The notes beneath the pieces are model-generated. The model ran no database searches and was not told where the DNA came from. It was given only the letters and a program-made list of their open reading frames with translations. From positions 1 to 20,953 of the IMG/VR virus record IMGVR_UViG_3300029258_003803: 20,953 nucleotides of DNA; one strand, given 5' to 3'. Source of the stretch: a virus. A program made the translations under genes and the position numbers. This document shows positions 1,159 through 20,745 of this stretch, piece by piece. Numbering within the stretch: the stretch's first letter is position 1; the number at the start of each line of letters is the position of its first letter.

Positions 1159-1540
1159 GGCGCGGGCCGCTGCCGGGTTGATCGCGGCTACCTTCAATTT
1201 GGAGCCTAGACTATTTAGCGGCCCGCGCCCGCCGAAGGCGCCATGGAGGACCATGGTGTGATGGGGATCGAACCTGAAGGCGGTGCACGAGTTTGTGTCT
1301 CGTTTCGAGGTCGCTGTGGAGGGCGCGGTTGTCGCTGGGCGTCGACGGGGCCAAAGGGGGTGTGTGCGGGGGGGTGGGGGGGTCTGATGGGTGGCGCCGG
1401 TCCCTTCGAGCGCGGGAGGGCTGCGTGTAGCACCCTTCTGAGCCAAGTGGGATCAAGTTTTGTCGGAGTGTTTACCTCAAGGCTGTGGCGCCCGATGACT
1501 GCGAGAGCTGGCGCCCCGGTTAGGCGTGGGTGGGTATTTT
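1159..1540 (+). ncRNA. Candidate structured non-coding RNA, copy A
   Basis: This stretch has no convincing gene but aligns with 11322-11590 in ordered blocks: 1270-1303 (33 of 34 identical), 1329-1350 (22 of 22), 1403-1435 (31 of 33) and 1487-1515. The blocks contain conserved hairpins. ACGAG/CTCGT closes a 7-nt loop at 1287-1303. CCTTC/GGAGG pairs at 1403-1415. GGCGCC at 1487-1492 pairs with GGCGCC at 1510-1515. A 13-bp perfect inverted repeat (1159-1171 with 1217-1229) lies upstream and could be an outer stem. A T-rich stretch follows (1536-1545). Orientation is inferred from the surrounding plus-strand genes and from hairpin/T-tract order. The family is not recognised; an OMEGA/HEARO-type guide RNA is one possibility, but no IscB, IsrB or TnpB gene is nearby. 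Confidence 0.55.
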
Positions 1541-1597
1541 TCTTTTAAATTATATAAATTTTTGGGTCTGCTGACGGGGAATCCTTGACAATCCCGG

Positions 1598-1618
1598 AGA
1601 CGACCGACCCGGTCGTCT
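1598..1618. promoter_or_regulatory. Palindromic operator-like site
   Basis: A perfect 9-bp inverted repeat, AGACGACCG-ACC-CGGTCGTCT, starts 7 bp after a TTGACA (1585-1590) and 33 bp before the promoter of the next small gene. It has the size and symmetry of a repressor site. Confidence 0.5.
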
Positions 1619-1651
1619 GTACAGGGGGGTGGGGCGGGGGGGCGAAGGGTA

Positions 1652-1680
1652 TTGACCAGTTCGATGGTTTGTGATATAGT
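1652..1680 (+). promoter_or_regulatory. Near-consensus sigma-70 promoter for the small gene at 1687
   Basis: TTGACC (1652-1657), a 17-nt spacer, then TATAGT (1675-1680). The expected transcription start falls at about 1686-1688, on the ATG itself, so the message would be leaderless or nearly so. Confidence 0.75.
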
Positions 1681-1686
1681 GGGATT

Positions 1687-1872
1687 ATGATGGAGGTTCA
1701 GGGTGGGCAGCGGAATGGAGTTTGGTCAGGCAAGTTGGGCCGGATTGTGCGGTGGCTCTTGAGTGAGGCTGCGCCGGTTGTGGAGTCTGACGACTGCAAT
1801 TGGAAGCTGGTCATTAATGGGGGTCCGGGGGATGATGTGAAGGCGGTGATCGAGCAGTATAAGCGGATCTGA
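1687..1872 (+). CDS. Small hypothetical protein (61 aa), probably from a leaderless message
   Basis: ATG ATG directly follows a strong promoter (TATAGT 6 nt upstream), and a strong terminator closes the unit, so this is a stand-alone transcript. The protein is small and mixed in charge, with a Trp-containing helix (GRIVRWLLSEAAP), an acidic middle, and a C-terminal helix with DDVKAVIEQYKRI. No ribosome binding site is visible, as expected for a leaderless message. I do not recognise the family. An upstream palindrome suggests it is regulated, so an early or regulatory gene is possible. The last codons and stop are duplicated: a 16-bp tandem duplication (AGTATAAGCGGATCTG) spans 1857-1888. Confidence 0.5.
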   Translation: MMEVQGGQRNGVWSGKLGRIVRWLLSEAAPVVESDDCNWKLVINGGPGDDVKAVIEQYKRI

Positions 1873-1920
1873 GTATAAGCGGATCTGATTGGGTCTTTTT
1901 CTGAGCGTGGCCTGGTTGGT

Positions 1921-1957
1921 AAGGGCGCTCTACCTTTACGGTAGAGCGCCCTTTTTT
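1921..1957 (+). terminator. Rho-independent terminator
   Basis: A perfect 14-bp stem, AAGGGCGCTCTACC / GGTAGAGCGCCCTT, with a TTTAC loop is followed by a T-run. It separates the small-gene transcript from the structural cassette. Confidence 0.92.
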
Positions 1958-1989
1958 GTGTTTTATGGCTTTTTGTCAGGAGGTGTAGG

Positions 1990-2394
1990 ATGCGCAAGTA
2001 TGCAGTTGTGGTTGTGGTGCTGGTTCTGTTGTCTGTGACGTCGATGCCGGCGGTGGCGTCGGTGGGGCAGGACGAGGCGATCCCGACGTTTGATTCGTGG
2101 CTGGAGAGTGCTTCTGGGCCTCTGGTCAGTGTCATCGTCGGGATTCTTTTGTCTTGGTTGGTGGAGTGGTGGCCGGCGTACGCTTCGTGGCCGTCGCGGC
2201 AGAAGCGGGTTGTGTTTATCGTGCTCTGCCTGGCTGTGCCGGTGGGCGCGGCGTGTTTGCGGGCGGCGCTGGGGTATGTGGCCTGGTCGTTCGACCCGTT
2301 GGTATGGTATGCGCTATGGGCCGGGTTTGCAGCTGCAGGGGCCGGGACGGCGGTGCACGCGCGCACGGGCGCAGGTGTCGACGCAGCGGGATGA
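1990..2394 (+). CDS. Holin-like membrane protein
   Basis: The 134-aa protein begins with a basic, very hydrophobic signal/anchor (MRKYAVVVVVLVLL) ending in an Ala-rich cleavage-like site. Three further hydrophobic segments lie at about residues 44-62, 72-95 and 101-122, separated by short polar loops (SWPSRQKR between the first two). AGGAGG at 1979-1984 is a good ribosome binding site. Small proteins of this layout (FDxW...LVSVIVGILLSW...KRVVF..LCLAVP) sit at the head of tailed-phage structural modules and are usually called putative holins, which permeabilise the inner membrane at lysis. That role is inferred from topology and position. No endolysin with an obvious catalytic domain is adjacent. 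Confidence 0.65.
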   Translation: MRKYAVVVVVLVLLSVTSMPAVASVGQDEAIPTFDSWLESASGPLVSVIVGILLSWLVEWWPAYASWPSRQKRVVFIVLCLAVPVGAACLRAALGYVAWSFDPLVWYALWAGFAAAGAGTAVHARTGAGVDAAG

Positions 2395-2764
2395 GGCGGA
2401 TCTAGAGTTCGACCAGGAGGCGCGGAAGAAGGTTCTGCGCAACGGGGATTACAGTCACGAGTTGATGCAGTTCTTTTTGCAGATCCTGGAGACGGAGCGG
2501 ATCGAGCGGCGGGCGGTGAACTCGCTGGTGCTGGAGCAGGCGGGGACGGCGCGCCACCAGGCCGATGAGGCGGTAAACGTAATGCGCGATTTCGTCGACA
2601 TTGCGCGGCGGATGGTGGATCGGCAGGATGCACGGGATGAGGAGCTGATCAAGCTGGTCCGGGAGCAATACGTGGCGGTCAAGTCGGTGGAGATCGCGTT
2701 GCGGCAGGTCGCGGCGCTGGCCGAGCGGGATGCCGGGGAGGAGGCTCATGGAGGACAGCAGTAA
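2375..2764 (+). CDS. Hypothetical helical protein (129 aa)
   Basis: The start is uncertain. A GTG at 2375 gives VSTQRDEADLEFDQEARKK and overlaps the end of the membrane-protein gene by 20 nt, fitting translational coupling; no strong ribosome site is visible. The protein is almost wholly charged and helix-forming, with heptad-like patterns (ILETERIERRAVNSLVLEQ, VMRDFVDIARRMVDRQDARDEELIKLVREQ). It lacks Cys and has very few Gly/Pro, as in coiled coils. The family is not recognised. Its place between a holin-like gene and the terminase genes suggests a phage accessory or lysis-timing role, but that is a guess. Confidence 0.6.
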   Translation: MSTQRDEADLEFDQEARKKVLRNGDYSHELMQFFLQILETERIERRAVNSLVLEQAGTARHQADEAVNVMRDFVDIARRMVDRQDARDEELIKLVREQYVAVKSVEIALRQVAALAERDAGEEAHGGQQ

Positions 2765-3029
2765 GGCCGGGGGTGAGGGGCAGTCTGTGGGGCTGCAGAT
2801 CATGGGTCGTATCCGGGCCCGGTTGGAGGAGGAGGCGTCGCGGCTGCTGGTGGAGTCGACCAGGATGAAGCGGGGGGCGGAGCAGATGAAGGCGTTGTCG
2901 GAGCAGTTGTCGGCGCGGGCGACGGTGATCAACGAGTTGGCAAACAGCTTGGGGGACACGGCGACGATGGCTAAGAGCGTTCGGTTCTTGTGCGAGGACG
3001 AGGAGGGAGAGGGGGGGTGTGAGGCGTGA
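2748..3029 (+). CDS. Hypothetical helical protein (93 aa)
   Basis: ATG at 2748 is preceded by GGGGAGGAGG at 2735-2744, an excellent ribosome site, and overlaps the end of the previous frame by 17 nt. An ATG at 2730 is less well placed. The sequence MEDSSKAGGEGQSVG leads into long charged helices (IRARLEEEASRLLVESTRMKR, QMKALSEQLSARATVINEL), a likely coiled coil, with an acidic C-terminus containing two Cys. It resembles its upstream neighbour in composition, so the two may pair with each other. No function is recognised. Confidence 0.65.
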   Translation: MEDSSKAGGEGQSVGLQIMGRIRARLEEEASRLLVESTRMKRGAEQMKALSEQLSARATVINELANSLGDTATMAKSVRFLCEDEEGEGGCEA

Positions 3030-3141
3030 GGCGTGAGGCGTGAGGCGTGAGGCGTGATGCGTGGGGCGTGAGGTGTGGGGTGTGAGTGTGAGGTGTGAGG
3101 TGTGGGGTGTGAGTGTGAGGTGTGAGGTGTGAGGTGTGATG
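3019..3141 (+). repeat. Degenerate short tandem repeats built from GTGAGGC/GTGAGGT
   Basis: About 16 variants of a 7-bp unit (GTGAGGC, GTGATGC, GTGGGGT, GTGAGGT) lie between the helical-protein gene and the small terminase gene. The right half is rich in GAGGTG, which is itself a good anti-16S match, so the array also provides the ribosome binding site for the next gene. Similar units recur at 9784-9832, 11219-11238, 19230-19275 and 20675-20745. Confidence 0.85.
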
Positions 3142-3615
3142 ATGGGGTCGAGGCGATGTACGGCACTCCGGAAGGATGGGGAGCCGTGCCGGGCGTGGGC
3201 GGTGCGGGGGAGCGATCCGCCGAGGTGCGGGGCGCATGGCGGCGGCTCGGCGTCGGCGGGCGCGCCGGCCGGCAATCAGAACGCGCGGAAGCACGGCGTT
3301 TACGACGACGCGGGCGATCTGCCTGCGGATCTCGATGCGCGGATTCGGGATCTGGACCGGCGTGTGGAGGAGTTGTCGGCGTACATTGACGGGCGGGAGG
3401 ATTTGGTGTCGGAGGAGTATATCCGGTTGCTGGGTTTGTTTGGGTTGCTAACGAGCCGGTTGGGGCGGTTGATGCGCGATCGGGTGCAGCTCGGCGGCGG
3501 TGAGGGGGGGCTGGGGGAGGCAATCGAGGACGCGCTGGCGGTGGCCAGCGAGGTCTTGGGCGTGGATTTAACGGGAAAAAAAAGTCCTTTGACAATCGAG
3601 GCCGAGGGGGGTTAG
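3139..3615 (+). CDS. terS: Terminase small subunit-like DNA-binding protein
   Basis: The N-terminus has C-T-A-x4-G-x-P-C followed by C-x2-H (RCTALRKDGEPC ... RCGAHGG), a compact zinc-ribbon-like arrangement. The motif GAPAGNQNARKHGVY then follows, which marks small-terminase-like proteins of many prophages. The remainder is a long charged helix (DLDARIRDLDRRVEELSAYIDG) suited to oligomerisation. The family recognises phage DNA and hands it to the large subunit for packaging. The start is ATG at 3139 (GTG 3136 and ATG 3142 are alternatives) behind GAGGTG units. Near its 3' end is a run of eight A (3576-3583), very unusual in this GC-rich gene. A -1 slip there would enter the large-terminase frame. 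Confidence 0.7.
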   Translation: MMGSRRCTALRKDGEPCRAWAVRGSDPPRCGAHGGGSASAGAPAGNQNARKHGVYDDAGDLPADLDARIRDLDRRVEELSAYIDGREDLVSEEYIRLLGLFGLLTSRLGRLMRDRVQLGGGEGGLGEAIEDALAVASEVLGVDLTGKKSPLTIEAEGG

Positions 3616-3641
3616 AGAGGCTGGCCCGGGTCGGGCCCCGT

Positions 3642-5135
3642 GTGCGGGCGATGGGGGCGTGCCTGGCGGATCTGGAGGTTTTTTCGCGGGTGGTGGTCGG
3701 GCTGCCGCTGCGGCGGTATCAGTTGGAGCCGGCGCGGGCTATCCTGGAGAGCGTGTTGCATGGCCGGGGTGAGACGTTTGTGGTGATGATGAGCCGCCAG
3801 GCGGGGAAAAACGAGCTGGCGGCGCAGCTGGAGGCGTATCTGTTGAGTCTCTATCAGCGGCGCGGCGGGCAGGTGGTGAAGGCCTCGCCCACGTTCAAGC
3901 CGCAGACGATCAACAGCATCCTCCGGCTGACGGATCGACTGGACAACCAGTGGCTGCGGCGGCGGTGGCGACGGCGGGAGGGGTACATTGTGGAACTGGG
4001 CCGGGCGCGGGTGCTGTTTTTCAGCGCTGAGCCGTCGGCCAAGGTCGTGGGAGCGACGGCGAACCTCCTGCTGGAGGCAGACGAAGCGCAGGACATTTTG
4101 TCTGCCAAGTGGGAGAAGGATTTCGAGCCGATGGGCGCCAGCGCCAACGTCACGACGGTGATGTGGGGAACGGCGTGGACGAAAAACACGCTGTTGGCAC
4201 GGACGAAGGCGCATCTGCAGCGCCTTGAAGCGCAGGACGGTCGGCGTCGGGTGTTCACCTACGATGCGAGTGCGGTGGGCGCGGAGGTGCCGGCGTATGC
4301 GCTTTACGTGGCGGACAAGGTGTCGAGGCGGGGGCGAAACCATCCGCTCATAAAGTCGCAGTATTTCCTCGAGGAGGTGGACGCGGAGGGGAAGCTTTTC
4401 AGCAAGCTGCGGCGGGCGTTGATGCGGGGCGGCCACGAGCGGCGGCACGCGCCGGTGGCGGGGCGGCGGTATGCGTTGCTGGTCGACGTCGCCGGGGAGG
4501 ATGAGACGCCGGGTGACGCGCTGGAGCGGATGCTGCTGGAGAACTCTCGGCGGGATGCGACGGCGCTGACGGTGGTGGAGGTGGACGTGGCGTATGGACG
4601 GTTGCCAGTCTACCGGACTGTCGACCGGCGGTTGTGGCTGGGTGCAAAGCACACGGGGCTGTACGGGCAGATTTTGGCGCTGGTGCAGCATTGGGGGGCG
4701 GTATGGGTGGTCGTCGATGCGACGGGGGTGGGCGCGGGGTTGTCCTCGTTCTTGGCCCAGGCGTTGGGGGAGAAGGTCATTCCGGTGGTGTTTTCCCCCA
4801 AGGTCAAGAGCGAGCTCGGGTGGGACTTTTTGGCGATCGTGGAGACGGGGCGTTATCGGGATTATGTCGACGATGGCGCGCCGGAGACGCGGCAGTTTTG
4901 GCATGAGGTGGAGGCGTGCGAGTATGAAGTCGGCGAGGGGCCGGGTAAGCGGATGAAATGGGGGGTGTGGGAGGCGGTGGCGTACGATGGTTTGATTGCG
5001 TACGGGCACGATGATTTGCTCGTCGGTGCGGCGCTGACGGCGGTCCTGGATCGGCAGCCGTGGCCGGGGACGGGACCAAGCGGGGTTGTGACGCTAGGGG
5101 ATGTGCTGGAGGAGATCGACGATGGGGAGTGGTGA
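3642..5135 (+). CDS. terL: Terminase large subunit (packaging ATPase/nuclease)
   Basis: 497 aa counted from GTG 3642. The ATPase half has Walker A SRQAGKNE (51-58), Walker B LLLEADEAQ (142-150) and a coupling-like TVMWGTAW (172-179). The nuclease half has three acidic motifs: LLVDVAGED (Asp282), VVVDATGVGAGL (Asp359) and HDDLLVGAAL (Asp457/458), as in RNase H-like packaging nucleases. It drives ATP-dependent DNA packaging and cuts concatemers at the portal. The start is weak: neither GTG 3642 nor ATG 3651 has a ribosome site. The frame stays open upstream through 3561, encoding plausible terminase N-terminus (LERLARVGPRVRAM), so translation may enter by frameshift or coupling from the small subunit gene. 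Confidence 0.92.
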   Translation: MRAMGACLADLEVFSRVVVGLPLRRYQLEPARAILESVLHGRGETFVVMMSRQAGKNELAAQLEAYLLSLYQRRGGQVVKASPTFKPQTINSILRLTDRLDNQWLRRRWRRREGYIVELGRARVLFFSAEPSAKVVGATANLLLEADEAQDILSAKWEKDFEPMGASANVTTVMWGTAWTKNTLLARTKAHLQRLEAQDGRRRVFTYDASAVGAEVPAYALYVADKVSRRGRNHPLIKSQYFLEEVDAEGKLFSKLRRALMRGGHERRHAPVAGRRYALLVDVAGEDETPGDALERMLLENSRRDATALTVVEVDVAYGRLPVYRTVDRRLWLGAKHTGLYGQILALVQHWGAVWVVVDATGVGAGLSSFLAQALGEKVIPVVFSPKVKSELGWDFLAIVETGRYRDYVDDGAPETRQFWHEVEACEYEVGEGPGKRMKWGVWEAVAYDGLIAYGHDDLLVGAALTAVLDRQPWPGTGPSGVVTLGDVLEEIDDGEW

Positions 5136-5154
5136 TCAGGTCGAGGAGGGGTCA

Positions 5155-5496
5155 ATGGAGAAGCAGGTGTTCGATGAGCCGATTTGGGCGATTGTGGAGC
5201 TGATGGGGCGTCACGTGGTTGCCGGGGAGGTGTCGGAGGTGACGGTGGCGGGGGCGGGGATGCTGCGGGTGGACGTGCCGGCGGTGGACGGGTCGCCCGG
5301 GTGCACCAAGTTTCTCGGGGGGAGTGCAATTTACGCGATTACGCCGGTGGGGGAGGCTGAAGCGCGGGAGGCTATCCGGCGGCTGAAGGTGCGGCCGGTG
5401 CATATCTGGGTGGTGCCGGACCGGCCGGCGCTGCCCTCGTCGTCGCCGTCGCCGTCGCGGGCGACGGATCTGGACGTTGAGGATTGTGGGGTTTAG
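5155..5496 (+). CDS. Conserved phage-associated protein of unknown function (113 aa)
   Basis: ATG 5155 has GAGGAGGGG at 5142-5150 as ribosome site; an upstream ATG at 5122 lies in the same frame but is less well supported. The body reads WAIVELMGRHVVAGEVSE ... MLRVDVPAVDG ... KFLGGSAIYAITPVGEAEAREAIRR, a pattern seen in small proteins next to portal and terminase genes and sometimes mislabelled as acetyltransferase. It looks like a compact beta-rich domain. The tail is low complexity (SSSPSPS) ending DVEDCGV. The stop directly abuts the portal ATG, so the two are co-translated. The biochemical role is unknown. Confidence 0.7.
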   Translation: MEKQVFDEPIWAIVELMGRHVVAGEVSEVTVAGAGMLRVDVPAVDGSPGCTKFLGGSAIYAITPVGEAEAREAIRRLKVRPVHIWVVPDRPALPSSSPSPSRATDLDVEDCGV

Positions 5497-6831
5497 ATGG
5501 CCGGCTTTGGGGAGCGGTTGGCGAGGTTCTTTTTCGGTGGTGTGATCGACCGGGCGGTGGCGCGGGAGGTCAGCGCGGCGGTGAGCGTGCGCGTCGATGA
5601 CTCGGCCGGGTGGGAGGAATACGGCCGGCTCGGGCCGGCGGATCGGCCGTGGGGTGACCGGTTGCAGGACCTGGGCGACGCGTTGGAGGCCTGGCGGAAG
5701 AATTTTTTGATCCGGCGGCTTGTCAATCTGACGCGGTCGTACGTCACCGGCGGGGGGATCGTGGTGAGTTCGGGCCACCGGGATGTGGAGCGGTTCGTCC
5801 GGGCGTTTTGGGACCATCCGCAAAATCGGATGGATCGGCGGCTCGGGCCGATGTGCGATGAGTTGACTCGGTCGGGGGAGTTGTTCTCTATCTTATTCAC
5901 GAATCGAGTGGACGGCATGAGTTATCTTCGTCTTGTGCCGGCCTCGAGTATTGCGGAGATTGAGACGGAGGAGGACGATTATGAGGTGGAGCTGCGGTAC
6001 GGGGAGCGGCGCGGGGTGGAGCCTCGCTGGTGGCTCTCGCCGGCGCACCCGGAGGCGGGCCAGGCCGGCGACGGTGGGAAGCTGCCGCCGGTGATGTTGC
6101 ATTTTGCGGTTAACCAGGTAGTCGGGGCGGTTCGGGGGGAGGGCGACCTGGGCCCTGTGCTGCCGTGGGCGAAGAGGTATTCGGAGTGGTTGAAGGACCG
6201 GGTGCGGCTCAACCGGCAAAGGACGCGCCAGGGGCTGCTGGATGTGGAGATCGCGGACGATAGCATGGTGGAGGCGAAGCGGCGGCAGCTGGCCACCTCG
6301 AATCCGGTGGCGCACGGGATCTATGTCCATGGCCCGGGCGAGAAAGTCACGATGCATGAGTTGAGTATTCGGGCCGGGGATGTCACGCAAGACGGTCGTC
6401 TCCTCCGGCTGGCGGCGGCAACGGGGGCCAACGTGGCGTTGCACTTTCTCGGCGAGGGCGAAAGTGTGAATTACGCTACCGCCAAGGAGATGGGCGAGCC
6501 CACGACGCTTTTTTACGCCGCGCGTCAGGAGGATTTGTGTGGGTTTCTCGTTGATCTGGTCGGGCAGGCGTACCGCCGGAAGGTGGCCATGGGCCTGGCC
6601 AGGATGCCAAAGGGGGGCGACCTGAGGCTGAGCGCGTCGGTGGGTGAAGTGAGCCGGGCCGACAACGTGGGCCTGGCGCAGGCGGCGGCGGCGATCGTTG
6701 GGGCGTTGGCCGAAATGAAGGCGCAGGGATGGATCGACGACGCGACGGCGGTGGAGATGGCGTTCAAGTTTGCCGGCCAGCCGCTGGGCGAGGGTGAGAT
6801 CGAGAGGATTCTTTATTCTGGTGAACAATAG
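5497..6831 (+). CDS. Portal protein
   Basis: 444 aa. Position directly after the large terminase and before the protease-capsid gene is the canonical portal slot. Portal-like features include an N-terminal helical region with RRLVNLTRSYVTGGG, then VERFVRAFWDHPQNRMDRRLGPMCDE (clip/wing side), LRLVPASSIAEIE, MLHFAVNQVVGAVRGEGDLGPVLPWAKRY (stem helix), and a helix-rich crown (LCGFLVDLVGQAYRRKVAMG). Portals form a dodecameric ring at one capsid vertex and bind the packaging motor. The start ATG follows the previous TAG with no gap. The size is typical (400-500 aa). The stop codon is the first bases of a 57-bp tandem repeat. Confidence 0.85.
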   Translation: MAGFGERLARFFFGGVIDRAVAREVSAAVSVRVDDSAGWEEYGRLGPADRPWGDRLQDLGDALEAWRKNFLIRRLVNLTRSYVTGGGIVVSSGHRDVERFVRAFWDHPQNRMDRRLGPMCDELTRSGELFSILFTNRVDGMSYLRLVPASSIAEIETEEDDYEVELRYGERRGVEPRWWLSPAHPEAGQAGDGGKLPPVMLHFAVNQVVGAVRGEGDLGPVLPWAKRYSEWLKDRVRLNRQRTRQGLLDVEIADDSMVEAKRRQLATSNPVAHGIYVHGPGEKVTMHELSIRAGDVTQDGRLLRLAAATGANVALHFLGEGESVNYATAKEMGEPTTLFYAARQEDLCGFLVDLVGQAYRRKVAMGLARMPKGGDLRLSASVGEVSRADNVGLAQAAAAIVGALAEMKAQGWIDDATAVEMAFKFAGQPLGEGEIERILYSGEQ

Positions 6832-7058
6832 TGGAACGAGATTCTTCGCCTTCGCTACGCTTTGGCTCAGAATGACAATTTTCCAGGGTGGAACGAGATT
6901 CTTTGCCTTTGCTATGTTTTGGCTCAGAATGACAATTTTCCAGGGTGGAACGAGATTCTTTGCCTTTGCTATGCTTTGGCTCAGAATGACAATTTTCCAG
7001 GGTGGAACGAGATTCTTTGCCTTTGCTACGCTTTGGCTCAGAATGACAATTTTTCAGG
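6831..7058. repeat. 57-bp tandem repeat, four units, between portal and capsid genes
   Basis: Units start at 6831, 6888, 6945 and 7002, with only a few differences between them. Each contains AACGAGATTCTT...GGCTCAGAATGAC, a partial palindrome (ATTCT/AGAAT, GCC/GGC). The reverse complement (GTCATTCTGAGC...AAGAATCTCGTT) belongs to a dispersed repeat seen in many bacterial genomes, where it yields spurious 'CHSEPKRSEGEESR' peptides. It fills the whole space between the portal stop and the ribosome site of the capsid gene. Confidence 0.9.
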
Positions 7059-7067
7059 GAGGTTTTT

Positions 7068-9383
7068 ATGGTGGAAGAGGTTGAGCGGTTGGAGGGGGAG
7101 GCTGGCGCGGAGGGTCCGGATCTGGAGCGTGGGGATCTCGCGCGCGTGCACTCGGGCCGGCTGTTGCTCCAGCTGGAGCCGGTGGGCGGGGGCGTCAATC
7201 GGTCGGGCCGGCGGGAGTATGATTGCATCTTTTTGCAGCCGGGTCGGGTGATGATGGCCAACGGGGAGGAGAGTACCTGGTTGATCCCGGCGGATGTGGC
7301 CCAGGCGGCGGCGCCGCTCTTTGGTGAGGTCTCGTGTTACCTGGATCACCCGGATCAGGTGGGTTTCTGGGGCTCGCGGGGGGAGCCGAAGGTGCGCAAC
7401 CTGGCCGGGGTGACGTTCGATGCCCAGTGGTCGGAGGAGGATCGAGCGGTCGTTGGGGGTATCCGGTTGTATGACAAGGAGCCCGGGTCGCCCGGGGCGT
7501 TCGTTGGCCACCTGGTGGATCAGATACTGGCTGACAAGGAGACGGGATTGGAAGTTCCTTCGCTTGGCTTGTCAGCTGTTTTTTATCACGACTCGGTGTT
7601 CGACGAGGAGGCCGGTCTGAGGGTCACGACGGCTTTTCGAAAGATCGAGTCGGTTGATTTTGTCTATGCTGCCGGCGCGCGGGGGTACGTCCGCAAGGCG
7701 TTGGCTGCAATGGAGACCGGGGAGTGGCCTCGGTCTCGCTATCGCTTGGGGGCGTATCCCCAAAGGAGTGAAGCCATGTCAGAGGAAGTGAGGACTGCGG
7801 GGGGCGAGGGGAGTGCGCCTCCGGAGGAGGAAGCGCCGCGTGCGGAGCATTCGACGCAGAGATTTCAGCAGCTGTCGCCGGCGGTCGCGCCCGTGCTGCA
7901 GCAGGCCCAGGCCCAGCAAGAGCGGCCAGTGGACCTCGGTGCGGCGCTGGAGGCGATCCGCGGGGTGGCAGAGCGGATCGACCGGTTGGAGGGGCTGAGT
8001 GCGTCGGTGGAGCGTCTCGCCGGGCAGGTGGAGGTGTTGTCGCGGCCGGCTGCGGTGGCTGCGCCTGTGGCCGATCCGGAGCCGGAGCCCGTGCCTGTGC
8101 CGGCGGCGTCGGCGACACCGGCCGGCGACCTGGTCGTGGAGCGGCTGGACGGGCTGAGCGCGTCGGTGGAGCGGCTCGCCGGGCTGATGGCCGAGCGGGA
8201 GGCCGGGCAGACGGTCACCGGGATGGGCGATGCACCTCGAGGCGATGGTGGCCGGATCTCGCTGGGCCCGACGGGGCTGGAGCAGATGGAGGCGGCGGTC
8301 GACTGGATCTTTGGCGTGCCGGGCGCGTCGCTGCCGGTGCCTGATCTGCGGCGGACGGATCGGATTTACTATTTGCTGAGCGGTGATGGTAACTGGACTG
8401 GGGTGTTCAACGAGAGGGAGGCGTTGGCAACGGCGAATCCGACGACACTGCCGGGGTTGGCAGTCAATGCCATGAACAAGGTGATTGTGCCGCTCTACGA
8501 TCGCATGGGCTGGTATCGTTGGTATGAAAAGATTGTTGTCGTGCAGCCGACGGATGGGACGTTGCATGATATGGCCTGGTTGCAGTTTGGTGGGATTGGT
8601 GACCTGCCCATCGTAGCAGACGGGGCAGCATACACTGAGCTGACGGTGGCGGATAGCAAGGAAAGCGATTCGTTCATCAAGCGAGGTGGGTACGTGGGGA
8701 TCACGGAGAAGATGCTGAGGAACAGTGCCATTGCCGAGATACAGGCGATTCCCAAGGCGATGGTTTTGTCTTCGGTACAGACCCGGTCGGGTAGGATTGC
8801 GGGGCTCTTTACGGCTAGTGCCGGCGTTGGACCGACGTTGGACCAGGACAGCACGGCTCTTTTCCACAACGATCACGGGAACCTGGCCACCACGGCGTAT
8901 TCGTGGTCGGCGTGGAAGGCGGCCAGGATCGAGTGTGCCAAACAAACGGAGTTGGGGAGCTCAAAGCGGCAAGGTCTGTTTCCGCGGTACTGTCTGGTGC
9001 CGATCGATTTGTATGACGGGGCGATGAGCGATTTCGGGTATGGTGCGGGTCCCCAGGGGCAACCGGGGACGAGTGACTATCACGTCAATCCGTACGCTAT
9101 GGATCACCCGGATGACCCTCGGCCGGTCCCTCTCTGTGTGCCAGATTGGACTGACACGAACGATTGGGGCTATCTGGCGGATCCGATGGTGGCTCCCATC
9201 ATTCAAATGGCGTACGCCGACAATCCGGGCGGGGGGATCCATCCCCCTCCACAGCTGTATGTAGTCACCAGTAAGCTGGCCGGTTTGATGTTCACGAATG
9301 ATGTGCTGCCGATTAAGGTCAGGGATTACTGGGCTTATGGCGTGGCCACCTATCGGGGCATTGGGAAGCGGAATGTGAGTTAG
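7068..9383 (+). CDS. Fused prohead protease - scaffold - major capsid protein
   Basis: 771 aa, ATG 7068 behind GGGAGG. Residues 50-215 resemble a prohead maturation protease: a His in CYLDHPDQVG (His94), a Ser in VPSLGLSAVF (Ser165 or Ser169), and IESVDFVYAAGARG with Asp197. Residues 237 to about 390 are Ala/Glu/Pro-rich and helical with the duplicated motif RLxGLSASVERLAG, as in scaffolds. From about 395 (ISLGPTGLEQMEAAVDWIFGV) to the end is a globular domain fitting a HK97-fold capsid subunit. The protease would process the scaffold and release mature capsid. A strong internal ribosome site and ATG at 7776 (Met237) could give scaffold-capsid without protease. Protease-capsid fusions are known but uncommon; usually these are two or three genes. 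Confidence 0.82.
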   Translation: MVEEVERLEGEAGAEGPDLERGDLARVHSGRLLLQLEPVGGGVNRSGRREYDCIFLQPGRVMMANGEESTWLIPADVAQAAAPLFGEVSCYLDHPDQVGFWGSRGEPKVRNLAGVTFDAQWSEEDRAVVGGIRLYDKEPGSPGAFVGHLVDQILADKETGLEVPSLGLSAVFYHDSVFDEEAGLRVTTAFRKIESVDFVYAAGARGYVRKALAAMETGEWPRSRYRLGAYPQRSEAMSEEVRTAGGEGSAPPEEEAPRAEHSTQRFQQLSPAVAPVLQQAQAQQERPVDLGAALEAIRGVAERIDRLEGLSASVERLAGQVEVLSRPAAVAAPVADPEPEPVPVPAASATPAGDLVVERLDGLSASVERLAGLMAEREAGQTVTGMGDAPRGDGGRISLGPTGLEQMEAAVDWIFGVPGASLPVPDLRRTDRIYYLLSGDGNWTGVFNEREALATANPTTLPGLAVNAMNKVIVPLYDRMGWYRWYEKIVVVQPTDGTLHDMAWLQFGGIGDLPIVADGAAYTELTVADSKESDSFIKRGGYVGITEKMLRNSAIAEIQAIPKAMVLSSVQTRSGRIAGLFTASAGVGPTLDQDSTALFHNDHGNLATTAYSWSAWKAARIECAKQTELGSSKRQGLFPRYCLVPIDLYDGAMSDFGYGAGPQGQPGTSDYHVNPYAMDHPDDPRPVPLCVPDWTDTNDWGYLADPMVAPIIQMAYADNPGGGIHPPPQLYVVTSKLAGLMFTNDVLPIKVRDYWAYGVATYRGIGKRNVS
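7762..7778 (+). promoter_or_regulatory. Internal ribosome binding site and start codon inside the capsid fusion gene
   Basis: AAAGGAG at 7762-7768 lies 7 nt before an in-frame ATG (7776-7778), at the exact junction of the protease and scaffold parts. Starting here gives a 535-aa scaffold-capsid protein. This is as strong a site as any in the cassette. Confidence 0.65.
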
Positions 9384-9412
9384 TCGGGTAGTCGGTTGGT
9401 CGGGTAGGTTCA
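9384..9412 (+). repeat. Short 8-bp tandem repeat (TAGTCGGG type)
   Basis: Units of RRTTAGTC/GGGTAGTC/GGTTGGTC type directly follow the capsid stop. The same family recurs at 19332-19396 and 20612-20671. Confidence 0.7.
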
Positions 9413-9431
9413 ACTATAAGGAGATTGTGTC

Positions 9432-9785
9432 ATGTTGAGGAAGTTTGTTCACACTGTACACGTGCCCGGGACGGGGACGGATATGAGTGTTCGGTGGAAG
9501 GTGCCGTCGGATTGTACGCTGTTGCATGTCTCGGCCTGTACCTCGTCGGATGACAGTGCAAAGATGGAGATCGGTGATGCGAGTGATGCCGATGCTCATT
9601 TGACGTCGTCGGCGGTCGGGAGTGGGGCGAATGCAATTGTGGAGTTTGACAAGGATGATTTTGTCGGCACGGAGTTTCCCCGGCTGCAGGATGGGGATAC
9701 GTTGGTCATTACGGTTGATACGGATGGAGGTGTTTCCGGGACCGGCGATGATTTGACGCTGGTGCTGACGTTTGTTGAGGGGTAG
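9432..9785 (+). CDS. Small beta-rich protein, candidate head decoration/cement protein
   Basis: 117 aa, ATG 9432 with AAGGAG at 9418-9423. The sequence alternates hydrophobic and polar residues (FVHTVHVPGTGTDMSVRWKVPSDCTLLHVSAC; TLVITVDTDGGVSGTGDDLTLVLTFVEG), the pattern of a beta-sandwich, and has no signal peptide. A small beta protein right after the capsid gene is the usual place of decoration or cement proteins that clamp capsid subunits. The role is inferred from position and fold only. Its general style is shared with the gene at 12145. Confidence 0.55.
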   Translation: MLRKFVHTVHVPGTGTDMSVRWKVPSDCTLLHVSACTSSDDSAKMEIGDASDADAHLTSSAVGSGANAIVEFDKDDFVGTEFPRLQDGDTLVITVDTDGGVSGTGDDLTLVLTFVEG

Positions 9786-9832
9786 CGCGTGATGCGTGAG
9801 ACGTGATTCGTGAGACGTGATTCGTGGGGGCA
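9784..9832 (+). repeat. Short 7-bp tandem repeats (CGTGATT type)
   Basis: Units of CGTGATG, CGTGAGA and CGTGATT alternate. This is the same family as at 3019-3141 and 19230-19275. Confidence 0.7.
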
Positions 9833-9867
9833 GGCGTGAGGTCTGCCCCTGTGTGGAGGAGGTTGTC

Positions 9868-10230
9868 ATGGGTTTTTTGGATTCGATGGCGGAGGGGGCG
9901 GCGAGGATGGCGGAGTATGCGGTGGCTCAGCGGGTGCAGGTGCCGGTGGAAGAGTTGGGGCGGGCGTTGGCTGAGTTGGGGCTGGTGGGTGTGCCAGTGT
10001 ATAGCGCGCGGAAGTTGGAGGATGGTGGCATTGAGGTGGTGACTCGGTTCGGCGCGAAGGTCTGGCGGCCGGAGAAGCCGGCGGCGAAGAAGCGGGCCAC
10101 GAGGAAGCCGGTCACGAAGAAGCCGGCTTCGAAGCGCACGCGGTCCCGGTCCGGGTCGTCGACGGGTAGCAAGAAGGTTGAGGTAAAAGGAAAGGAGGCC
10201 GGAGGTGAGGTTCAGGCTGAGCAGGAGTGA
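9868..10230 (+). CDS. Hypothetical protein with histone-like basic tail (120 aa)
   Basis: ATG 9868 with GGAGGAGG at 9854-9861. The N-terminal part is a helical and beta domain (MGFLDSMAEGAARMAEYAV, VPVEELGRALAELGLVGVPVYSARKLEDGGIEVVTRFGAKVW). The C-terminal third, from about residue 70, is rich in Lys/Arg/Ala/Pro with repeated KKPA/RKPV/KKPAS steps, like the tail of H1-type or HU-extension proteins that bind DNA without sequence preference. It lies between capsid and fibre-like genes, so it may be a DNA-condensing internal head protein. The family is not recognised. Its end overlaps the start of the next gene by 26 nt. Confidence 0.65.
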   Translation: MGFLDSMAEGAARMAEYAVAQRVQVPVEELGRALAELGLVGVPVYSARKLEDGGIEVVTRFGAKVWRPEKPAAKKRATRKPVTKKPASKRTRSRSGSSTGSKKVEVKGKEAGGEVQAEQE

Positions 10231-11218
10231 TGGGTGGTTTCTCGTTGGGTTGGTTGGGATTTTGGTTGTTGTTGTGTTGGTGGTGGGGGGTGTGCAGCGG
10301 TGGGAGGCGTCCATCGATGAGGGGAATGAGATTGTTTCGCTGGGGGTGTCGCATTTCAGCGGGATACACGTTTCGGTGCCGACGGATGTGGCTACGGCGA
10401 CGCCAGGGCTGATGGTGGACTGTGCCGGGGTGGGCAACTGTTTCGAGATTCGGGACGGGGGTACGCCGGTGGCGCAGTGGGGCGACGGTGGGGCTTTTAC
10501 CGGGTCTGGTGCGCGGACGTTTTCCGGTCTGGTCAATGCTAACGGCGGGATCGCGGTCGACACATCGGCTTTCACGGTGGCGGATGCGACGGGGAACACG
10601 GTGGTCAGTGGGACGCTGGCGGTGTCGGGGACGTCGACGCTGGCCGGCCTGGCTAACGCCGATGGTGGGATCGCGGTGGACACATCGGCTTTTACCGTGG
10701 CGGATGCGACGGGGAACACGGTGGTCAGTGGGACGCTGACGGTGTCGGGGACGTCGACGCTGGCCGGCCTGGCTAATGCCGACGGCGGGATCGCGGTGGA
10801 CACATCGGCTTTTACCGTGGCGGATGCGACGGGGAACACGGTGGTTAGTGGGACGCTGGCGGTTAGTGATACCTCGACGCTGGCCGGGGGGCTGACGGTG
10901 AGTGCCGGTGGGCTGGATGTTGCCGGCGGGGTGTTTGAGATGAGTCACACTGAGATCACGAATTCGTACGATCTCACCCCGACTAGCACGTTGTACATTG
11001 TGAACTCGACGGGGGCGACGGTTATAACGCCGACTGCTTGCTCGAATTTGGGGCAGATGCTGTTTTTCTATGGTGACGACAATAACGGTGTTACCATAGC
11101 GAAGGCGAATTTGCTGACGACGGACGGGAATGATGTGGCCATTGACCAGTATGACTTGGTGGGTTTTATGTGCGTGACGACGAAGTGGGCGCTGATGTTT
11201 GAGGCGAATTTGCAGTGA
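10205..11218 (+). CDS. Membrane-anchored repeat protein, fibre/adhesin-like
   Basis: 337 aa from GTG 10205, behind AGGAGG (10195-10200). Basic residues (RFRLSRSDG) precede one transmembrane segment (about residues 11-29). The middle holds three near-identical 36-residue repeats (NADGGIAVDTSAFTVADATG..., about residues 110-215), then a shorter fourth-like remnant, and a beta-rich end (SNLGQMLFFYGDDNNGVTIA ... VTTKWALMFEANLQ). The repeat type is common in trimeric fibre shafts and surface adhesins. A membrane anchor is odd for a virion fibre and suggests a host-surface protein or a virion protein crossing a membrane. The repeats are also nearly identical in DNA (units about 108 bp), so recent duplication is likely. 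Confidence 0.65.
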   Translation: MRFRLSRSDGWFLVGLVGILVVVVLVVGGVQRWEASIDEGNEIVSLGVSHFSGIHVSVPTDVATATPGLMVDCAGVGNCFEIRDGGTPVAQWGDGGAFTGSGARTFSGLVNANGGIAVDTSAFTVADATGNTVVSGTLAVSGTSTLAGLANADGGIAVDTSAFTVADATGNTVVSGTLTVSGTSTLAGLANADGGIAVDTSAFTVADATGNTVVSGTLAVSDTSTLAGGLTVSAGGLDVAGGVFEMSHTEITNSYDLTPTSTLYIVNSTGATVITPTACSNLGQMLFFYGDDNNGVTIAKANLLTTDGNDVAIDQYDLVGFMCVTTKWALMFEANLQ

Positions 11219-11257
11219 TCCGTGATGCGTGATGCGTCTACGGCGGAGCGATGGCCG

Positions 11258-11590
11258 GAGCCGGGGGTTGCCTGCGGGGTGGATCCCCGGCTCGGTAAGG
11301 GTCACGGTGGGGTGGTGGAGCGAACCTCAAGGCGGTGCACGAGTTTGTGTCTCGTCTCTAGGTCGCTAGGGGGGGCGCGTTTGTCGCTGGGCGTCGACGG
11401 GGACAACGGGGGTGTGTTTGAAGTCAGGGGGCTTTGTTATGGGTGTCGCCGGGTCCTTCGACCGCGGGAAGGCTGCGTGTAGCACCCGTCTGCGCGTCTT
11501 TGGATCTAGTTTTTTCGTGAGTTTCTAGTTCATTCTCGAGGGTGCCCGATGGCTGAGGGAGCTGGTGCCTTGCTTTGGTGGGTGCTGGTG
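11258..11590 (+). ncRNA. Candidate structured non-coding RNA, copy B
   Basis: There is no convincing gene between 11219 and 11624. Ordered blocks match copy A: 11322-11355, 11381-11402, 11455-11487 and 11541-11569. The hairpin arms change in pairing-preserving ways. GGTGCC/GGTGCC (11541-11546 with 11564-11569) replaces GGCGCC/GGCGCC at the same 23-nt spacing. CCTTC/GAAGG replaces CCTTC/GGAGG. A separate 9-bp inverted repeat, GAGCCGGGG (11258-11266) with CCCCGGCTC (11285-11293), lies upstream where copy A has its 13-bp one. It sits inside the structural cassette, 35 nt ahead of the caspase-like gene. Confidence 0.55.
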
Positions 11591-11624
11591 AATTTTCTCA
11601 GTAAAAATCCAGGAGGAGGGTGCT

Positions 11625-17502: not shown

Positions 17503-19229
17503 GGGTGGTCGATGCGACGTTGTTGAGTGGGCAGCTGCGGCTGGCCGGGGAGCCGGCGCGGTCGCTGGTGGTGGGGACGGCGCCGGATACGGCGGATGTG
17601 TCGGCGTATGTGGTGGCGTACGATTATGAGGAGGTGGGGGATAGCGATTCCGGCTTGACGGTGCGGTTGGATAATTCGGGGGGGACGTTCAATTCGTTGA
17701 CCGGTGACCTGGCCAACGTCACGCAGGGGGCGGCGGTGGAGTTGAAGCGGGGGGTGCGGGTGGAGGGGACAAGTTACCTGGCGGAGCTCCCCCGGACGTG
17801 GGTCGAGTCGATCGGGTATGAGCACCTGGGCGGGGTGAGTTTGTGTGTGCTGGAGTGCATCGATTGGCGGGGGAGGCTGGCGCGGTGGCGGGCTGCATCG
17901 GAGCAGACGTGGTCGTCGACGGCGGCGTCGACGATCCTGGAGTGGTTGCTGACGCAGGTGGGGTTGACGCGGGCGTCGGGGACGATGACTGCGTTGACGC
18001 TGGATTATGCGGTGCGGCTGCGGGAGTCGGGGGAGGCGGCGCTGGATCGGTTGGTGGGCAAGATGCCGGAGTATCTTTACGCCGGGTTGGATGGGGAGGT
18101 CAAGTGGCGGGAGATCGATGGGGGGGATGTTTCGGTTTACACGTTTGGGTGGAATGCGAGCCACGCGGTGCTGCTGGTCGAGGCGGCGGCTTCGGCGTGG
18201 CAGGTGAATAGTGTGAGTGTGTTGGGCCGGGCGGGGAAGAGTGGGTTGGCGGAGGATGCGACGCAGATCGCGGCGGTGGGGAGGCGGCGCTGGACGATCT
18301 ATGATGATGATCTGGACGGTGACGCCGAGTGCGCGCAGCGCGCCCAGGCGGAGTTGGATTTGTACCAGGCGGAGGCGACGGAGGCGACGATTGTGTGCCG
18401 GCCTTGTCACGGGTTGGAGTTGTTCGATGTGGTGACGGTGGCCTCGCCACCATGGGGTGGGTTGGACGTGGTGGGGCGGGTGATTCGGTTTCGGGAGGAG
18501 TGGAATATGAATGGAAGGTGGCACCAGGTGATCGGGTTGGGGCGGGTGAAGGATAAGGATCCGGGGAACCAGCCGGCGAAAAAGTCGGCGAGGAAGGGGC
18601 GGCAGAGCCGCCGGCGTATCTGGCGGTGTCCGGTTTTGCGGCGGGAGCCGTCGGATCCGTGGTTGGTGCCGGTGGGGGGGATTGTGATGTGGTCGGGGGC
18701 GTCGGACGATGTGCCGGCGGGGTGGGTGTTGTGCGATGGGACGAATGGGACGCCGGATCTGCGGGGGCGGTTTATTGTGGGGGCGGGGGATGCTTACACT
18801 TCGGGGGATGTGGGGGGGGAGGAGACGAGCGACCTGCGGCACACGCATGGGCCGGGGTCGCTGGCGACGGATTCGGACAGCCACACGCACGGGCCGGGGT
18901 CGCTGGCGACGGATTCGGACAGCCACAAGCATGGGTTTGCTCATGACATTGCTACGGGGAGCGAGTCGGCGGCGGTGACGGTGGCATCGGGGTCGGGGGC
19001 GGAGGCGGCGCGGGGTGGGAGTTTGCATCACGTGCACACGGTGTCGGGGTCGACGTTGGAGTCGGAGATGGAGAGCGATGGTCACAGTCACGACGTGGAT
19101 AGTGGGGCAACGGCGAGCGACAGTCATGGGCACGATGTGGATAGTGGGGTGACGGGGAGTGGGGGGTCGGCGGGGCAGGAGAATCGGCCGCCGTTTTATG
19201 CGTTGGCGTTTATTATGCGGGTGGGGTGA
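17499..19229 (+). CDS. Tail protein with C-terminal collar domain and His-rich tip
   Basis: 576 aa, GTG 17499 overlapping the preceding TGA, with GGAGGAG at 17483-17490. Residues 1 to about 350 are a beta/helix domain (TVRLDNSGGTFNSL, TWVESIGYEHLGG, DWRGRLARWRAASEQTW) that resembles baseplate-hub/tail-associated proteins. A basic linker (KKSARKGRQSRRR) follows. From about residue 388 a tail-collar domain begins: VPVGGIVMWSG...PAGWVLCDGTNGTPDLRGRFIVGAG. The end has repeated H-x-H motifs (HTHG, SHTHG, HVHT, HSHD, HGHD) and ENRPPFYALAFIMRVG, the usual C-terminus of collar/short-fibre proteins, whose HxH motifs bind metal in trimeric tips. It is the probable receptor-binding device. A 60-bp duplication repeats GPGSLATDSDSH at about 18856-18927. 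Confidence 0.78.
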   Translation: MRVVDATLLSGQLRLAGEPARSLVVGTAPDTADVSAYVVAYDYEEVGDSDSGLTVRLDNSGGTFNSLTGDLANVTQGAAVELKRGVRVEGTSYLAELPRTWVESIGYEHLGGVSLCVLECIDWRGRLARWRAASEQTWSSTAASTILEWLLTQVGLTRASGTMTALTLDYAVRLRESGEAALDRLVGKMPEYLYAGLDGEVKWREIDGGDVSVYTFGWNASHAVLLVEAAASAWQVNSVSVLGRAGKSGLAEDATQIAAVGRRRWTIYDDDLDGDAECAQRAQAELDLYQAEATEATIVCRPCHGLELFDVVTVASPPWGGLDVVGRVIRFREEWNMNGRWHQVIGLGRVKDKDPGNQPAKKSARKGRQSRRRIWRCPVLRREPSDPWLVPVGGIVMWSGASDDVPAGWVLCDGTNGTPDLRGRFIVGAGDAYTSGDVGGEETSDLRHTHGPGSLATDSDSHTHGPGSLATDSDSHKHGFAHDIATGSESAAVTVASGSGAEAARGGSLHHVHTVSGSTLESEMESDGHSHDVDSGATASDSHGHDVDSGVTGSGGSAGQENRPPFYALAFIMRVG

Positions 19230-19275
19230 GGAGTGAGGCGTGATGCGTGAGGAGTGATTCGTGATTCGTGATTCG
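19230..19275 (+). repeat. Short 7-bp tandem repeats (CGTGATT type)
   Basis: GTGAGGC, GTGATGC, GTGAGGA and GTGATTC units follow the tail gene stop, the same family as at 3019-3141, 9784-9832 and 20675-20745. Confidence 0.8.
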
Positions 19276-19290
19276 TGAGAGGTAGTGGGT

Positions 19291-19330
19291 GAGGGCCAGT
19301 CGCTTTGGGCGGCTGGCTCTTTTTGTTTTT
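19291..19330 (+). terminator. Rho-independent terminator of the structural cassette
   Basis: A GAG(gg)CCAGTCG...CGGCTGGCTC stem with a small bulge is followed by TTTTTGTTTTT. It lies about 60 bp after the tail gene. Confidence 0.85.
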
Positions 19331-19462: not shown

Positions 19463-20400
19463 GTCTCAATCCCCTATCAAGCGGGGCAATGTTTCTGACC
19501 AGTGGTCTCGATCCAGACGTAGTCGCATCCTGCACCGTGTCTCAATCCCCTATCAAGCGGGGCAATGTTTCTGACTGGAGAGAACAGGTGCTCATCAAGT
19601 GAAAGTCCCAAGTCTCAATCCCCTATCAAGCGGGGCAATGTTTCTGACGAGGCGAAGAGCCTCCTGGAGAACAACTCCTTCCCCAAGTCTCAATCCCCTA
19701 TCAAGCGGGGCAATGTTTCTGACTCGGCCAGTCCGGCCCGCCAAACAGCCCCGCCAATGGTGTCTCAATCCCCTATCAAGCGGGGCAATGTTTCTGACCC
19801 GGAGGATGTGCGCTCGCAATCCTCATAGTTGCGAGTCTCAATCCCCTATCAAGCGGGGCAATGTTTCTGACAAGACGCCACTGGCGAGACCTGCCAGTGG
19901 TGTATCCACCAGGTCTCAATCCCCTATCAAGCGGGGCAATGTTTCTGACCCGAAGGCGAAAGTTGCGCCTTCGGGCAGGGGGGTATCCCGTCTCAATCCC
20001 CTATCAAGCGGGGCAATGTTTCTGACGAGAAAGAAATGGGAATTTTAAGGGCCTTCTGGGTCCAAGTCTCAATCCCCTATCAAGCGGGGCAATGTTTCTG
20101 ACCAGTGCTCGGTCAAGGTAATTGGCCGCTGTGGGGCCGAGTCTCAATCCCCTATCAAGCGGGGCAATGTTTCTGACCAGAGAACCCGGACCCTCTGGTC
20201 AAAAGGGAGGGCTTTGGTCTCAATCCCCTATCAAGCGGGGCAATGTTTCTGACGAGGCCAATGGGTAAATGGCCTCGATGGATTAGTTGAGTCTCAATCC
20301 CCTATCAAGCGGGGCAATGTTTCTGACTCCTTCAATGAAAAGCCCGACCCCAGGAGATCTCTAGTCTCAATCCCCTATCAAGCGGGGCAATGTTTCTGAC
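19463..20400 (-). CRISPR. CRISPR array: 13 repeats of 37 nt, 12 spacers of 36-41 nt
   Basis: Repeats start at 19463, 19539, 19612, 19687, 19762, 19835, 19913, 19990, 20066, 20141, 20217, 20291 and 20364, and look identical (GTCTCAATCCCC...GTTTCTGAC on plus). A CCCC/GGGG stem lies inside. The reverse complement ends in ATTGAGAC, close to the ATTGAAAC handle left at crRNA 5' ends in many type I-B and type III systems, so the crRNA sense is the minus strand. A promoter at 20592-20621 supports this. Full identity of all repeats gives no degenerate end. No cas gene lies in the window, so the type is unknown. No spacer matches the rest of this window by eye. Six spacers contain perfect hairpins. 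Confidence 0.98.
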
Positions 20401-20621: not shown

Positions 20622-20745
20622 GGGGTCTGTTAGTCGGGTGGTCAATTAGTCGGGTAGTCGGGTGGTCGGGGGCGATGCGTGAGGCGTGAGGGGTGATTCG
20701 TGATGCGTGATGCGTGATGCGTGAGGAGTGATTCGTGAGGGGTGA
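20612..20745 (+). repeat. Mixed 8-bp (TAGTCGGG) and 7-bp (CGTGATG) tandem repeats
   Basis: The 8-bp family (20612-20671) runs directly into the 7-bp family (20675-20745). The -35 of the CRISPR promoter lies within the first repeat unit, so the repeat and promoter have been combined. Confidence 0.8.

Follow-up and report, generated by a model that had tools for sequence, protein, structure and literature searches.

Two copies of a constrained noncoding element, which are long-lived paralogues, are carried by the 20,953-nt IMG/VR virus record analysed here at its full length (the window), most of which is a single plus-strand structural gene cluster. We propose that the element, which is plus-strand, about 200–300 nt long and restricted to one phage lineage, acts in cis on the late transcript, preferably by a mechanism like that of the put sites of phage HK022. 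We give this reading a probability of roughly one in three, about half of it for antitermination and the rest for a different cis function in the mRNA (in processing, in stability or in translation of ORF 11625).

Two copies in the window and a third in a related phage

The two copies lie on the same strand, offset by 10,052 nt in register, and match each other within the window at E 5.5e-56; their ungapped alignment (1265–1465 with 11317–11517, 201 nt) has 82% identity. A third, distinct copy is found on contig 3300029267_005644 (L005/L008, hereafter L005), flanked by the same pair of genes as copy 2, and contigs L003 and L004 carry copy 2 unchanged. The main features are as follows.

1244..1541, plus strand: copy 1, core of the noncoding element, sharing 76–77% identity with copy 2 across 298 nt
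11295..11595, plus strand: copy 2, core of the noncoding element within the structural operon, by its identity to copy 1 and its ortholog in L005/L008
1329..1350, plus strand: 22-nt identical block in copy 1, TTGTCGCTGGGCGTCGACGGGG, with one C-to-T change in L005
11381..11402, plus strand: the same 22-nt block in copy 2, by string comparison
1159..1229, plus strand: 13-bp inverted repeat 5' of copy 1, arms at 1159 and 1217, absent from the other copies
11258..11293, plus strand: 9-bp inverted repeat 5' of copy 2, arms at 11258 and 11285, not kept in L005
1990..19229, plus strand: structural (late) gene cluster with TerS, TerL, portal, protease-capsid protein and tail fibre, assigned with PHROGs

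A preliminary description of this DNA had reported the two copies, their conserved blocks and hairpin strings and a separate inverted repeat upstream of each, and a re-count in the window located all of these. The blocks of 33/34 (1269/11321) and 22/22 identical positions (1329/11381) were recovered exactly, and the third (1411/11463) is present with 30 rather than 31 of 33 positions identical. Over the core, the orthologous pair (copy 2 and the L005 copy) shares 81% identity and the paralogous pairs 75–76%. Since the orthologues are closer than the paralogues, the duplication is most simply older than the split of the two phages. The L005 contig stops short of copy 1, and the first location is seen in the window only.

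Noncoding nature and constraint

The element is noncoding. Changes between the copies fall evenly across codon positions, nonsynonymous changes outnumber synonymous ones in all frames, every frame contains a stop in at least one copy, and the L005 copy has frame-breaking indels. A coding remnant was rejected on these frames, codon positions and indels, and the original description of the regions as noncoding holds, with no conserved reading frame across the blocks.

Between the window phage and the L005 phage, 12.4% of positions differ in the central ~195 nt, compared with 24.5% at four-fold synonymous sites (p = 1.4e-4). In the 3' part the two phages differ by 30%, with no departure from synonymous sites, and the upstream extension, at 42%, changes faster than these. 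Neither outer part changes more slowly than neutral sequence, and the GGCGCC hairpin and the inverted repeats 5' of the copies, which fall within these parts, are therefore in unconstrained DNA. Conservation is clustered, with runs of 27 and 17 invariant columns across the three sequences, the longest of which has P = 0.0006 under column shuffling. Within the ungapped 201 nt, copies 1 and 2 differ by 37 changes, of which only 9 are transitions; drift through G-U pairs does not leave such a pattern.

These data bear on the quite unlikely reading that the segment is a largely inert duplication whose blocks were kept by recent exchange between copies or phages, not by selection. That only three distinct sequences exist, and that four-fold identity varies as widely as 62–88% among genes, would allow it. 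It fits poorly, however, with a register held for 201 nt without a gap, with conserved blocks shared by the paralogues and the orthologue alike, and with the greater closeness of the orthologues, which is evidence against gene conversion having occurred recently within the window.

Folding and strand specificity

The preliminary description took the element for a large structured RNA, a reading that is partly supported: at least one hairpin (H1) is specific to the plus strand, whereas the element as a whole folds about as well as its shuffles. Single-sequence folding of the three copies gave z-scores of −0.7, +0.7 and +0.5 against dinucleotide shuffles, and the consensus fold of the whole core lies at the shuffle mean (z about 0). 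The three-sequence alignment was also scanned in 56-column windows on both strands against shuffled alignments, and the hairpins discussed are these.

1267..1315, plus strand: hairpin H1, copy 1, by consensus fold against shuffles
11319..11367, plus strand: hairpin H1, copy 2, by consensus fold against shuffles
1397..1438, plus strand: hairpin pair H2 (CCTTC arm and UGC/GCA hairpin), copy 1, weak
11449..11490, plus strand: hairpin pair H2, copy 2, weak
1511..1527, plus strand: small 3' hairpin H3 (YGCC/GGYG), copy 1, pairable in all three copies
11565..11581, plus strand: small 3' hairpin H3, copy 2, pairable in all three copies

The best plus-strand window is H1 (z about −3), a hairpin of 49 nt built around the invariant run of 27 nt, whose stability was reached by 2 of 500 shuffles on the plus strand and 86 of 500 on the minus strand; as the best among many windows scanned, this plus-strand signal is suggestive. 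For H2, which has one two-sided change, 5 of 200 and 27 of 500 shuffles were as stable, and for H3, which sits in the unconstrained 3' part, 17 of 500.

Covariation, on which the structured-RNA claim had leaned, is not borne out: H1 and H2 together contain one double change in 34 pairs, a count matched by 145 of 500 shuffles, in a test that with three sequences has little power either way. The individual arms had a mixed fate. GGCGCC (1487/1510) and GGTGCC (11541/11564) do recur at the 23-nt spacing, but the pairing is broken in L005, where the 5' arm reads GTGAGC, and covariation of this hairpin was rejected. CCTTC can pair in all three copies (with GGAGG, GAAGG and, in L005, GGGGG), though its changes fall on the purine side only, and the ACGAG-TTTGTGT-CTCGT hairpin is present in both copies as described.

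The main rival, possible though on the doubtful side, is that the element works as DNA: an origin, a site of packaging or recombination, or a stretch of homology bounding an exchangeable head-gene module. Whole-element RNA folding no better than shuffles and the preponderance of transversions between the copies are what such a site would show, and the packaging and capsid module is flanked by the two direct copies. Exchange near copy 1 is also indicated at 2284–2305, where all three related contigs break and the sequence is 100% identical even to L005, against ~86% identity between L005 and the window in the genes flanking 2284–2365. H1 speaks for RNA instead, being strand-specific and reliant on G-U pairs; moreover, the palindrome within the 22-nt block, CGTCGACG, is common in the window (10 sites), and the proteins scanned included no recognisable integrase or recombinase.

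Operon context and a proposed cis-acting role

Promoter-like and terminator-like sites place the two copies before and within the structural operon.

1652..1680, plus strand: promoter-like site TTGACC-17-TATAGT, 3' of copy 1 and before the 61-aa ORF 1687, a consensus match only
1921..1953, plus strand: strong terminator-like hairpin with 14 pairs and a T run, separating copy 1 from the structural operon
19291..19321, plus strand: strong terminator-like hairpin closing the structural cluster

The two best terminator-like sites of the window thus bracket the operon, the strongest being that at 1921–1953. The sole good promoter-like site (1652) lies 3' of copy 1; none was recognised 5' of copy 1 or before copy 2, and no terminator stands out just 3' of copy 2. 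Copy 2 occupies a 406-nt gap in a compact operon in which most gaps are below 120 nt (others measure 236 and 444 nt); as it also lacks a promoter-like site, co-transcription with the operon is the simplest assumption.

The same landmarks make it unlikely that the two loci give rise to a free small RNA that has 5' and 3' ends of its own and acts in trans. A U-rich stretch, TTTTCT, closes the similarity 3' of H3 in all three copies and no gene follows copy 1 directly, as such an RNA would lead one to expect; the missing promoter-like sites before both copies, a U stretch too distant from H3 for an ordinary intrinsic terminator, and the lack of constraint in the 3' part all weigh against it.

The cis-acting reading draws together the duplication, the noncoding and constrained sequence, its orientation with the operon, the plus-strand H1 and the terminator-like hairpin between copy 1 and the operon. 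Late transcription starting before copy 1 would have to pass the terminator at 1921–1953, as in processive antitermination systems. In the mechanism we prefer, the nascent RNA (H1, a G-rich linker and H2) would make contact with RNA polymerase during elongation or with a factor of the phage; at copy 1 this would carry polymerase past this terminator into the 17-kb structural operon, and about 9 kb later copy 2 would restore the effect. We infer three points: that transcription runs through copy 1, that the element acts as RNA, and that antitermination takes place. The absence of a promoter-like site before copy 1 counts against antitermination, a reading that has to assume that transcripts of copy 1 continue into the operon.

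The nearest analogue, by our comparison, would be put of HK022, where each phage has two RNA copies with terminators downstream (PMC9378689). Like putL and putR (PMC9378689), the element is noncoding, occurs in two similar copies in one phage, contains hairpins and, at copy 1, lies 5' of a terminator-like site, and cis action is proposed for both. The differences are substantial: put is about 70 nt in two stem-loops and belongs to the early operons of lambdoid phages, whereas the window element spans 200–300 nt (~195 nt constrained, with H1 and H2 80 nt apart) and has one copy ahead of a late operon and one inside it. The two are not shown to be related in sequence, and antitermination here is a proposal by analogy. 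Tested against put, the window has two related copies in one phage genome and a terminator-like site 3' of copy 1, with no promoter-like site 5' of it; size and a covariation no higher than in shuffles count against a put-like reading.

The put RNA suppresses termination through the beta-prime zinc-binding domain of the polymerase. A put-like antiterminator may be the mechanism here, a suggestion that we hold with low confidence. A bolder version, which we consider improbable, is that the element represents a new class of phage RNA, with no sequence relation to the put, nut or Q systems, that keeps polymerase processive through the 17-kb late operon after loading at two points. To our knowledge, regulation in Chloroflexota phages has hardly been studied. 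If the cis-acting reading is true, this would be a late-transcription regulatory element of such phages; if false, it would still be a constrained noncoding repeat, an orphan that serves as a marker of a single narrow phage lineage.

Search for relatives and comparison with known RNAs

The family had not been recognised earlier, and Rfam matched neither copy, giving chance matches only at the gathering score and up to E 10. DNA-pattern scans of viral and genome contigs returned only the three related contigs already known, and no further copy came from capsid and ORF-11625 protein scans for loci, from distant blastn of phages and plasmids, or from nhmmer on all loci. A covariance model whose own members score 190–222 bits found nothing further in 99 loci and 298 genomes; two genome matches at E 0.006, about chance level for 298 genomes, and an unrelated match in L150 were discarded. 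Altogether, the element has no relative in 400 Chloroflexota genomes or ~100 related loci, and capsid-bearing loci with 60–77% capsid identity are without a recognisable copy or too short to show one. The repeats inspected in other relatives (L035, L042, L045, L058 and L095) proved to be simple repeats or coding sequence and are no counterparts of the element. As far as these data show, it is confined to one narrow phage lineage.

Several known RNA types are comparable in size. GOLLD, ROOL and OLE are likewise noncoding RNA candidates of several hundred nt, but Rfam has no match for the window element, which shows no sign of being extensively structured. With the HEARO/OMEGA guide RNAs it shares its noncoding nature, a length of a few hundred nt and the presence of conserved blocks, and nothing else favours the suggestion, made in the preliminary description, of a guide RNA working in trans with a host or phage nuclease. 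HEARO (RF02033) matched neither copy up to E 10, and the TnpB C-terminal domain (PF07282) is absent from the window and the three related contigs, the control being positive in six genomes; we regard this reading as very improbable. The IscB RRXRR domain (PF14239) had no match near the element, but the control genomes gave none either. Reverse transcriptase (PF00078; group II intron, retron or DGR) is absent from the window and its near relatives, contigs that may be incomplete, with the control positive in three genomes. The suggested packaging-RNA analogue also found no support: no Rfam packaging RNA of the phi29 type matched, and the packaging genes form an ordinary-looking TerS/TerL/portal set, scoring as TerS and TerL and not as a phi29-like ATPase.

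Host and other features of the window

In protein scans, relatives of the capsid sit chiefly in genomes of Chloroflexota, Anaerolineae among them, and in virus contigs from metagenomes, so the phage host is likely a member of the Chloroflexota. The CRISPR repeat of the window, tried for host identification, matched none of 400 Chloroflexota genomes. Its array (19464–20400; 13 repeats, 12 spacers) lies just 3' of the last structural gene and the terminator with no cas gene in view, and contig 3300017989_000547 carries an identical array with the same spacers; against the fetched loci, no spacer matched over more than 15 nt. A capsid relative with 73% identity, on a Chloroflexota MAG contig (L035:8996–10978), lies immediately 3' of two-component and HD-domain-like signalling genes, not of terminase and portal genes.

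About 122 nt present in the three related contigs are missing from the window at 2358–2365, which alters the gene after ORF 1990. The noncoding DNA at the left end, 5' of copy 1, holds nested imperfect inverted repeats (818–843/1054–1079 and 843–861/894–912), and the portal–capsid gap holds tandem 57-nt repeats that are 95–96% identical (6831–7062). Repeats of a 7-nt unit of the GTGATGCGTGA type recur in intergenic gaps (3005–3136, 9782–9825, 11215–11237, 19226–19276 and 20672–20729); one instance lies immediately 5' of copy 2, and L005 has similar repeats.
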